From contig CAIYYQ010000255.1 of NCBI GenBank assembly GCA_903930505.1, positions 1 to 8,890 of the forward strand: a stretch of 8,890 bases of DNA. The letters run 5' to 3'. Position 1 is the stretch's first letter. Each line of letters opens with the position of its first letter. Below are positions 5,467 to 7,576 of the stretch, piece by piece. This DNA comes from Methanobacteriota archaeon (lineage in GTDB: Archaea; Thermoplasmatota; E2; DHVEG-1). Below the pieces are notes generated by a model. It did no database searches and was not told where the DNA came from. It saw only the letters and a program-made list of their open reading frames with translations. Both the position numbers and the translations under genes were made by a program.

Positions 5467-5510
5467 CTCCCCATGTATTGAGGTGTTAAAACCTGGTTCA
5501 TCGTATAAAT
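5467..5510 (-). promoter_or_regulatory. Promoter and ribosome binding site of the surface-protein gene
   Basis: On the minus strand, ATTTATA (5504-5510) is a TATA box. A start near 5480 gives a leader of about 20 nt that carries GGGGAG (5467-5472), seven bases from the ATG. The short, well-formed leader supports the chosen start. Confidence 0.5.
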
Positions 5511-5586: not shown

Positions 5587-5649
5587 CATCTAAGGCGTGA
5601 AGACAGTAGTGATAGAAGGTTAACTACATACGTATTTACATATTCAGCT

Positions 5650-5668
5650 GCGAAAAAGATACTTAAAA
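5650..5668 (+). promoter_or_regulatory. BRE and TATA box of the candidate small RNA
   Basis: GCGAAAAA (5650-5657) followed by ATACTTAAAA (5659-5668) resembles the CGAAA-type BRE plus TATA arrangement of strong archaeal stable-RNA promoters. The expected start is about 5686-5691, exactly where the base of a long stem begins. Confidence 0.45.
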
Positions 5669-5685
5669 CACCACTGCTTTCAAGA

Positions 5686-5778
5686 GGTTGGAAGGAATTG
5701 GGCTGGTAGTTGTTTTAGAGTGCATCCCATCCCCTCCTAGTGAGGCCAGCCTTTCCTTCTTTCTAAAACAGTTTTTTT
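5686..5778 (+). ncRNA. Candidate structured small RNA of about 90 nt
   Basis: No protein frame explains this stretch, yet it has a promoter-like element upstream and ends in T7 (5772-5778). Stem 1 pairs GAAGGAA (5691-5697) with TTCCTTC (5753-5759), and GGCTGG (5701-5706) with CCAGCC (5746-5751), around a small internal loop. A mini-hairpin CCTC-ctagt-GAGG (5733-5745) abuts stem 1. A nine-base perfect pairing, TGTTTTAGA (5711-5719) with TCTAAAACA (5762-5770), links the loop of stem 1 to the 3' flank, so both together form a pseudoknot-like topology. The loop exposes UCCCCUCCU (5730-5738), an anti-Shine-Dalgarno-like sequence. I do not recognise a known family: there is no T-loop for a tRNA and no C/D boxes, and an ACA at 5768 is too far from the stem for a standard H/ACA guide. 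The start is estimated. Confidence 0.5.
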
Positions 5779-5880
5779 CTTCTGTAAATAAGGGCCCCTC
5801 ATTTTTATTCGTGAAAAAATAACAAAGTATTTTACCATAGTCGACATTACAAAATTGGTGGATGGAAAAACACGCTTGAG

Positions 5881-5991: not shown

Positions 5992-6105
5992 ATGACCGCA
6001 CATGTACCAAATTATTGTCAAGAACCAAAGGCTATACCGAAGCAGATACCGCTATTTGAGGAACAGGATGATGGAAAACTCATCCCGTACACAAAAGAAA
6101 TTTAA
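5992..6105 (+). CDS. Small ORF of 37 residues, function unknown
   Basis: This reads from ATG at 5992 to TAA at 6103-6105. AGGAGG (5977-5982) lies nine bases upstream and an in-frame TGA directly precedes the ATG, so the start is fixed. The peptide begins MTAHVPNYCQEPKAIPKQ, continues IPLFEEQDDGKLIPYTKEI, and is soluble, charged and Pro-rich. It has no signal peptide or membrane segment, and its single Cys could not bind a metal alone. T-rich sequence follows the stop, so it has the layout of a complete one-gene unit lying 82 bases before thiDN. I do not recognise the family. It could be a genuine small protein or, less likely, a leader peptide for the downstream gene, although the T-rich tract and the separate thiDN promoter argue against that. 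Confidence 0.6.
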   Translation: MTAHVPNYCQEPKAIPKQIPLFEEQDDGKLIPYTKEI

Positions 6106-6187: not shown

Positions 6188-7576
6188 ATGGAAAAACGAA
6201 CAGTTGCATTAAGTATCGCAGGATCAGATTCTTCAGGTGGCGCAGGCATTCAAGCGGATATGAAATCATTTTCTGTTCTTGGTGTCCATGGATTAACCGT
6301 GATAACTTGTGTTACCGCGCAGAACACACAACGGGTACACCATATACATCCTGTGTGTGTTGAAAGTATTGAACAACAAATTGATGCCGTGTATGGGGAT
6401 TTCTCTATTAACGCTGTGAAAACCGGGATGCTGTACAGTGACGAGATAGTAAGTTGTGTTGTAAAAAAAATTTCAAAGTATCATATGAAAGCTGTTGTCG
6501 ACCCTGTAATGATTGCTACAAGCGGAGATAGTCTTTCTCAAAAAACGTTTCTTGAAACACTGAAAAAAGATCTGCTGCCGAAAACATACTTGTTAACCCC
6601 GAATATCCCTGAGGCAGAAATGCTTCTTGGAAAAACGATAAAATCTTTGGAAGAAATGCAAAACGCTTGCAAAAAACTTCATCATCTCGGACCAAAACAC
6701 ATATTTTTGAAAGGAGGTCATCTTGAATGCGATGATGCCACGGATGTCTTTTTTGATGGGAAAAAAATCTCTACGTTTTCTCTCCCACGAATCCCCCTGG
6801 GAAAAACACATGGCTCAGGGTGTACACTTTCAGCACTTATTACTGGGTATCTTGCATTAGGAGAAACACCCTTTCACGCAGCACAAAAAGCAAAAACCAT
6901 GACATGGACGATGATTAACGATGGTTTTCGATTAGGAAAGAGCACAACACTTTTGAATCAATCACTTTATATCCATGATGTTCCACCGATATGTCCTAGC
7001 ATTGATCATTTTTGTGTGTGGCTAGAGTTAAAAACCATGGTTGATCGTTTACTCTCAGGTTTACCCAAAGAGTTTGTTCCTGAGGTAGGAATGAACATCG
7101 GTTATGCAGTAATTGGTGCAATGAGTCCAGATGAGATCTGCGCAATTGAGGGACGAATCGTAAAAACATGCGACCGTGTACTTCGATATGGTCGATTGGA
7201 TTTCGGCGTCTCAAAACACATAGCCTCGATTATCCTTACGGTGATGTCTCTTGATATGTCGATGCGATGTGCGATGAACATTCGTTATTCGCAAGAAAAC
7301 CTTAATCTATGTAGAAACGCTGGGTTAACCGTTGGTTCTTTTGATCGAAAAAATGAGCCGGCGAACGCCTCTTCAACAATGGAATGGGGAACTAAAGATG
7401 CAATCGTAAGGCTCAACTGTATCCCTGATATAATCTATGATACCGGTGGTGTTGGAAAAGAACCTATGATTCGCCTTCTTGGCAAAAACCCTTCAGATGT
7501 TCTTCGAAAGATGCAATGCATCATCGGAAAAACAGGAGAAAAATTACGAAATCATTATAAAGGACAACAGAATTGA
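6188..7576 (+). CDS. thiDN: Bifunctional HMP/HMP-P kinase and thiamine-phosphate synthase (ThiD-ThiN)
   Basis: This is a 462-residue cytoplasmic fusion enzyme of thiamine synthesis. The ThiD part (about 1-262) phosphorylates hydroxymethylpyrimidine to its monophosphate and diphosphate. It has the substrate motif IAGSDSSGGAGIQAD (10-24), VDPVM (104-108) and the C-terminal anion-hole motif HGSGCTLSA with C212, the usual catalytic Cys position. The ThiN part (about 270-458) is the archaeal thiamine-phosphate synthase. It joins HMP-PP to the thiazole phosphate and replaces bacterial ThiE. Recognisable ThiN segments are VPEVGMNIGYA, RLDFGVSKH, CAMNIRY, GSFDRKNEP and DTGGVGKEP. Both domains are complete with normal length. 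The ATG at 6188 is the only sensible start. No TPP riboswitch is seen upstream. alba follows 40 bases downstream on the same strand and may be partly cotranscribed. Its product chain supplies the cofactor that IorA needs. Confidence 0.94.
   Translation: MEKRTVALSIAGSDSSGGAGIQADMKSFSVLGVHGLTVITCVTAQNTQRVHHIHPVCVESIEQQIDAVYGDFSINAVKTGMLYSDEIVSCVVKKISKYHMKAVVDPVMIATSGDSLSQKTFLETLKKDLLPKTYLLTPNIPEAEMLLGKTIKSLEEMQNACKKLHHLGPKHIFLKGGHLECDDATDVFFDGKKISTFSLPRIPLGKTHGSGCTLSALITGYLALGETPFHAAQKAKTMTWTMINDGFRLGKSTTLLNQSLYIHDVPPICPSIDHFCVWLELKTMVDRLLSGLPKEFVPEVGMNIGYAVIGAMSPDEICAIEGRIVKTCDRVLRYGRLDFGVSKHIASIILTVMSLDMSMRCAMNIRYSQENLNLCRNAGLTVGSFDRKNEPANASSTMEWGTKDAIVRLNCIPDIIYDTGGVGKEPMIRLLGKNPSDVLRKMQCIIGKTGEKLRNHYKGQQN
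7555..7562 (+). promoter_or_regulatory. Possible internal promoter for alba
   Basis: TTATAAAG at the very end of thiN could be a TATA box giving a start near 7585 and a leader of about 30 nt. GGGAG at 7605-7609, seven bases before the alba ATG, is a good ribosome binding site. An abundant protein such as Alba would be expected to have its own promoter. Confidence 0.35.

Follow-up and report, generated by a model that had tools for sequence, protein, structure and literature searches.

Between two protein-coding genes of this archaeal contig lies a protein-free gap, and the question it raises is whether positions 5650-5778 hold a small RNA gene in its own right and, if so, which messages its product would act on. 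The window (the whole 8,890-nt stretch of DNA analyzed) encodes a C25 peptidase, subunits of a POR-type oxidoreductase, a PGF-CTERM protein, ThiD-ThiN, Alba, and citrate synthase; on one side of the segment, the PGF-CTERM ORF starts at 5501 on the minus strand, and on the other, thiDN starts at 6188 on the plus strand. The original prediction placed here an archaeal small RNA with its own promoter, two crossing stems, and an oligo-T terminator, and every feature it listed was located in a sequence check. The independent small RNA with promoter, stem, and oligo-T end has held up, whereas the pseudoknot or switch has not. Our reading, which draws on sequence comparison, is that 5687-5771 very probably specifies a trans-acting base-pairing sRNA that has FtsZ mRNA as a target and is conserved across the phylum.

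The RNA gene and its distribution

The features assigned to the locus are as follows.

5650-5657, plus strand: BRE-like GCGAAAAA, putative promoter part, from the sequence
5659-5668, plus strand: TATA-like ATACTTAAAA, putative promoter part; such a block also lies upstream of short-type copies
5687-5771, plus strand: small RNA gene, with the 5' end placed by the TATA distance and the 3' end by the T run
5691-5697, plus strand: GAAGGAA, outer helix 5' strand, pairing with 5753-5759; seen in family copies
5701-5706, plus strand: GGCTGG, inner helix 5' strand, pairing with 5746-5751; the counterpart helix covaries
5703-5711, plus strand: CUGGUAGUU, pairing segment 1, complementary to AACUACCAG of ftsZ leaders
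5716-5720 with 5734-5739, plus strand: UAGAG with CUC-C-UA, possible apical stem
5720-5734, plus strand: GUGCAUCCCAUCCCC, apical loop region and pairing segment 2, complementary to GGGGATGGGATGCAC
5746-5751, plus strand: CCAGCC, inner helix 3' strand; the counterpart helix covaries
5753-5759, plus strand: TTCCTTC, outer helix 3' strand, from the sequence
5762-5770, plus strand: TCTAAAACA, 3' arm of the predicted crossing helix; not a conserved part (1 of 79 copies)
5772-5778, plus strand: T7 tract, probable terminator; T runs follow the stem in relatives' copies

A contig scan with ThiD-ThiN retrieved a close relative, L001, with 90% identity (other matches: L002, one bacterial). In pairwise comparison, 5684-5766 is 100% the same in L001 and differences begin immediately outside. 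Two further noncoding blocks, 5595-5658 upstream of the RNA, which contains the promoter, and 5806-5854 downstream of it, are likewise strongly conserved between these two close relatives, being nearly or fully identical. Farther downstream, a 37-codon ORF (MTAHVPNYCQEPKAIPKQIPLFEEQDDGKLIPYTKEI) at 5992-6105 on the plus strand, preceded by GAGGAGGAATTGTTGA, keeps an open reading frame that is mostly retained in L001; it gave no Pfam match and is probably an unannotated small protein. A CRISPR-repeat-like string in the window, GUUUUAGAG, was dropped because relatives do not retain it.

The RNA element is present in all 45 genomes of the nearest family, 31 of which have two or three matches. A family model built from 37 copies (threshold E ≤ 0.001) also matched 49 of 52 genomes of the order and 70 of 80 of the class. 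Across the sampled phylum (Thermoplasmatota), it matched 217 of 389 genomes at the same threshold, a count that was made with strict filters and rough E-values, with 40 distant copies read and the weakest matches left unread, and that errs both ways, since same-kind copies can be seen by eye in the model-negative genomes G096, G114, and G119. Some weak matches (L083, 25 nt long, L147, L148, L149, and L151) look chance-like, and another, L137, is an ftsZ leader on its opposite strand; the genomes concerned also have stronger matches. The apical loop, GUGCAUCCCAUCCC, is near-invariant across the phylum copies read.

The neighborhood of the gene was clustered over 128 distinct motif places, with one member of each cluster named by Pfam. 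Upstream there is an LSM gene on the same strand in 24 loci and a DUF7121 gene in 21; downstream are genes for urocanase (26 loci), SRP54 (18), ThiD-ThiN (9), and fumarase (7), and a TGT gene lies near the RNA on the other strand in 7 loci. A TATA-like block stands at a fixed distance before the stem: across 39 phylum copies, positions -30 to -25 have an AT content of at least 0.90. In 68 of 78 family copies and 24 of 39 phylum copies, the stem is followed within 22 nt by a run of at least four T's. The positioned block and the T runs in relatives bear out the predicted promoter and oligo-T end, and together with the varied neighbors they argue that the RNA has its own gene and is not the leader of one neighbor. 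That it precedes thiDN in the window and in nine loci would fit a cis-regulatory leader of the downstream gene, here ThiD-ThiN, but the downstream genes vary by clade and T runs follow the stem, and we regard such a leader as most improbable. A TPP riboswitch in the thiDN leader was rejected as well, as no Rfam model matched and the neighbors vary among clades. Judged by these comparisons, 5687-5771 is an independent small-RNA gene recurring across the phylum, and we infer that it is transcribed. It is separate from its candidate target: ftsZ lies on other contigs or, in the single-contig genome G014, far off. The LSM gene beside 24 copies of the RNA suggests, by neighborhood, a partner Lsm protein.

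The original prediction had recognized no known family. Rfam 15 at gathering thresholds indeed gave no match in the window and, in 20 divergent loci, two tRNAs and no other match. The open-licence PMC articles, in the portions available, held no description of such an RNA under Thermoplasmatota small RNAs, the loop string, or archaeal ftsZ-directed sRNAs. A short, phylum-wide RNA that in one clade has SRP54 and TrmY genes as neighbors might also be a guide or structural RNA for ribosomal RNA, of the H/ACA or C/D kind. We rejected this candidate and give it next to no weight: no Rfam family matched, the boxes are absent by eye (including an ACA box after the stem), and the best match to the 16S and 23S rRNAs of four genomes is at shuffle level.

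Structure of the RNA

The outer and inner helices comprise 13 bp in total (5691-5706 with 5746-5759). The fold by itself is unremarkable and not beyond chance: 5685-5780 has a minimum free energy of -26.5 kcal/mol (z -1.15), and 27 of 200 shuffled sequences fold equally well. What sets the RNA element beyond chance is the identity of 5684-5766 in L001 and its recurrence in 45 of 45 family genomes. The stem proposed in the original prediction is supported by covariation. In 38 distinct phylum rows, 98.6% of inner-helix cells are paired and 34 cells carry a two-sided change; five of the six pairs have at least one sequence in which both partners differ, and none of 500 shuffles matches the covariation score. 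Shifting the partner of the inner helix by one to three columns lowers that score from 0.483 to at most 0.115. The alignment behind these values was fitted to the model, which somewhat favors the inner helix, and its 41 rows include L174 4409-4493 (E 0.09), a probable chance match that was counted in the test. In an arm-exchange stem test, only moderately discriminating compared with the covariation test, 7 of 11 representatives scored highest with their own partner; rows with a broken or partial motif (L067, L070, L083, L117 plus strand, L137, L147, L148, L149, and L151) and any short or N-containing row were excluded from it. Stem variants include GGCUGG/CCAGCC, GGGCUAG/CUAGCCC, CAGACCGG/CCGGUCUG, and GGUCAG/CUGACC, around a nearly constant loop, GAGUGCAUCCCAUCCC. 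Counterparts of the possible apical stem, UUAGA/UCUGA, occur in other clades.

The second helix of the original prediction, a pseudoknot or switch formed by 5711-5719 with 5762-5770, had to be given up. In the window, TGTTTTAGA at 5711-5719 and TCTAAAACA are perfectly complementary, but an exact run of at least 6 nt is found only in this copy, 1 of 79 distinct ones, and the 3' arm differs in L001. Across copies, the mean run with the own partner (3.42) is chance-like next to that with shuffled partners (3.58). The bases of the 5' arm sit in the mRNA-facing loop, and part of them can close the apical stem.

By eye, further hairpin RNAs combine a loop identical or similar to this one with clearly unlike stems, such as AGUCUGG/CCAGACU and GGGGGUC/GACCCCC, among others (L207, L216, L232, L234, and L244; L219, L230, L245, and L248; L217 and L251; L239; L084, L085, and L144). 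These may be paralogues within one sRNA superfamily. In one clade (L131-L134, L139, and L140) the RNA also has GAUGCUCUUUUU, which is the complement of the RNA's own loop GAGUGCAUC and has U's after it, possibly a self-sequestering or terminator variant.

Complementarity to ftsZ leaders

FtsZ orthologues were fetched by protein (query P0001; TIGR00065, 7e-112) in order to avoid the bias of sites found through the word itself. The family set comprises 30 loci from 35 strong matches, and the leader nearest to the window among those examined is that of G001. Conserved complementarity to the RNA near the translation start is present in 30 of 30 family ftsZ leaders, 0 of 20 paralogous ones, and 7 of 30 loci outside the family. 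All 30 family leaders carry the 12-mer that complements the loop (29 exactly, 1 with one mismatch) and AACTACCAG, complementary to the other invariant segment of the RNA (28 exactly, 2 with one mismatch), and in all of them the order of the two segments suits a single antiparallel duplex. The 12-mer falls within a small predicted hairpin, GGGG-AUGGGAUGCA-CCCC in most leaders, while AACUACCAG, the complement of the invariant CUGGUAGUU, ends 4-13 nt before the GGAGG ribosome-binding site. A second predicted hairpin lies between the two segments; 2 of 12 predicted pairs change on both sides. For the paralogous family ftsZ genes, a search of 600 nt found no site with at most one mismatch, the best having two. 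Among the 30 distant FtsZ-type loci, seven have the word with at most one mismatch (mean 0.03 and maximum 1 in shuffled leaders), five more have it with two mismatches, and 23 lack it at one mismatch or fewer. G173, G179, G201, G219, and G271 carry the RNA, and their FtsZ matches are only remote. Many of the genomes compared are fragmented.

In some distant clades, sequence comparison indicates that the RNA and the ftsZ leader have changed together; in others no ftsZ site was found. In G072, GGGCUGGUAGC-AAAAA-GGCAUCCCAUCCCCUCCC in the RNA faces GGGAGGGGATGGGATGCC-GCTACCAGCCC in the leader (blocks of 19 and 11 nt; z -8.9). In G061, GGAUAGGCUGGUAGUUGUUA faces TAACAACTACCAGCCTATCC over 20 nt without the 12-mer (z -4.9), and in G087, GGUGCAUCCCAUCCCC faces GGGGATGGGATGCACC over 16 nt (z -5.0). 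G205 has a 17-nt block, GAAGGGATGGGATGCAC, which uses the clade's CCCUUC flank (z -4.5); an FtsZ-type gene of G235 (44% identity to P0001) has GTCAGAAGGGATGGGATGCAC, matching 21 nt of its own RNA's GUGCAUCCCAUCCCUUCUGAC; and the ftsZ leader of G068 (62% identity) has GGGGATGGGATGCACTACCAGCCTAT, matching 26 nt of the shortened loop of the G066 and G070 RNAs from the same class (the RNA of G068 itself was not found). Because they were found through the word, G205, G235 (the second gene), and G068 indicate match length, not frequency. Among 22 RNA-leader pairs scored, of 31 chosen, nine have z ≤ -3 and six z ≥ 0. In a block matrix of 21 leaders (21 of the 22 chosen pairs, G040 being out because its RNA row was merged as a duplicate), the own RNA is best on 12, ties included, and strictly best on three; it is seldom strictly best because the core is nearly identical everywhere. 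For the class members G063, G071, G073, G075, G076, and G077, whose RNA reads GGUAGC..GGCAUCCC, the ftsZ leader should, on the pairing model, read GGGATGCC and then GCTACC, as found in G072.

We infer from this complementarity that the RNA pairs with the ftsZ leader in the cell. The stem would display the loop GUGCAUCCCAUCCC and the adjoining CUGGUAGUU, and the hairpin of the FtsZ mRNA leader would display the complementary loop AUGGGAUGCA. Loop-loop contact could initiate pairing, which would then spread to AACUACCAG and give a two-part duplex of about 25-30 bp from which the second leader hairpin is excluded. Such a duplex would end inside the expected ribosome footprint and lower FtsZ synthesis; the same loop could also cover the start codons of EarA-like regulator mRNAs (see below).

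The sign of the effect is drawn from these positions, and repression of ftsZ translation appears likely. It is preferred because the expected ribosome footprint would take in the end of the duplex and because blocking the sites brings no rise in the predicted accessibility of GGAGG, whose mean unpaired probability in predicted folds goes from 0.45 to 0.37, a change that is not decisive. The same RNA could instead activate ftsZ, for instance by shielding the leader or exposing the ribosome-binding site, and weak CUACC/GGAGG pairing in several predicted leader folds is consistent with this; the fall in GGAGG accessibility speaks against it, and pairing across EarA-like start codons would presumably impede initiation, so that we consider activation unlikely. 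A different reading takes the shared loop as a protein docking site and the match to mRNAs as secondary. The near constancy of the loop in the phylum copies read and the LSM gene adjoining the RNA in 24 loci are compatible with docking, but the mRNAs hold the complement of the loop, not the same word, and RNA and leader change jointly in G072, G061, and G205; we find this reading quite improbable. Pairing with ftsZ mRNA, with repression as its likely outcome, is the explanation we retain.

Comparison with known ftsZ regulators and further candidate targets

To our knowledge, targets are known for few sRNAs of archaea, and most such RNAs have a narrow distribution. The present RNA is phylum-wide, with a named candidate target in cell division and, in some clades, pairing sites that vary in step, and these properties provide a testable model of posttranscriptional FtsZ control in archaea. 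Among bacterial RNAs, DicF pairs with ftsZ mRNA. Complementary hairpin loops also face each other in the antisense RNAs that control plasmid copy number, for example RNA I/RNA II; those are cis-encoded plasmid controls, whereas the archaeal RNA is trans-encoded and chromosomal and has a second pairing segment. DicF, an E. coli Qin-prophage sRNA, is like the archaeal RNA in being a small RNA that controls cell division (PMC5069750); it is bacterial and prophage-borne, whereas the present RNA is archaeal and phylum-wide, with two pairing segments. In Klebsiella pneumoniae, DinR occupies the ribosome binding site of ftsZ and thereby represses its translation; DinR is cut from the 3' end of dinI, Hfq dependent, and LexA controlled (PMC10907235). 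The archaeal RNA would have a comparable role but is built differently, with a promoter of its own and a site in the leader that precedes the ribosome-binding site. StfZ of E. coli is antisense to ftsZ mRNA (PMC9628754), as the archaeal RNA would be; StfZ is a cis-antisense RNA from ftsA-ftsZ, whereas the archaeal RNA is trans-encoded. The targeting of ftsZ mRNA that would be shared with DicF, DinR, and StfZ is deduced here from complementarity. No kinship to the three is evident as judged by Rfam alone, in which no family matched at gathering.

Each of 44 family genomes contains the loop complement GGATGGGATGCA, with 242 occurrences in total, a number that includes the RNA genes themselves (one to three per genome); the reversed word is absent from these genomes. 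In 14 distant genomes there are 36 occurrences, and none of the reversed word; 27 genomes without a model match have 37 occurrences in 15 genomes and the reversed word twice, and several of these sites are RNA-like hairpins or, in one case, an ftsZ leader. We read 50 family word loci (L204-L253; 46 distinct sites), which comprise RNA genes, other-stem hairpin RNAs, ftsZ leaders, EarA-like start codons, an insertion-sequence-like protein, a few leaders just 5' of ATG, and chance-looking coding matches.

Genes for EarA-like small proteins account for 10 sites, with GTG GAT GGG ATG CA at the start codon (L204, L229, L233, L235, L236, L243, L246, L247, L250, and L253); the assignment comes from PF07381 in the single member tested. 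EarA itself is the archaellum regulator of Methanococcus (PMC5512572). The RNA loop could cover these start codons, which makes them further candidate targets by sequence, and the conservation of the sites is not an independent test, since they were found via the word itself. Somewhat less firmly than repression of ftsZ, we favor the view that a family of hairpin sRNAs, several per genome, uses the shared loop UGCAUCCCAUCC to read the mRNA tag GGAUGGGAUGCA and so forms an RNA-level regulon whose tags would lie in the ftsZ leader, at EarA-like start codons, and elsewhere, perhaps together with an Lsm protein from the adjacent gene. If true, this regulon would link cell division with other programs, and the family model with the 12-base tag allows regulon mapping in uncultivated archaea.

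Other tag sites stand apart. A set of repeated genes (L226, L237, L240, L242, L350, L352, L370, and L371) begin with ATG/GTG GAT GGG ATG CAG; they are probably insertion-sequence genes, and the RNA may silence them or they may make use of it. A long inverted repeat at L376 (G065 C54), present on two contigs, contains the tag twice, the copies facing each other with 45 bp between them. At L278 (G321), the tag lies upstream of a coding sequence that we take, from its residues, to be SMC-like, another chromosome-maintenance gene.
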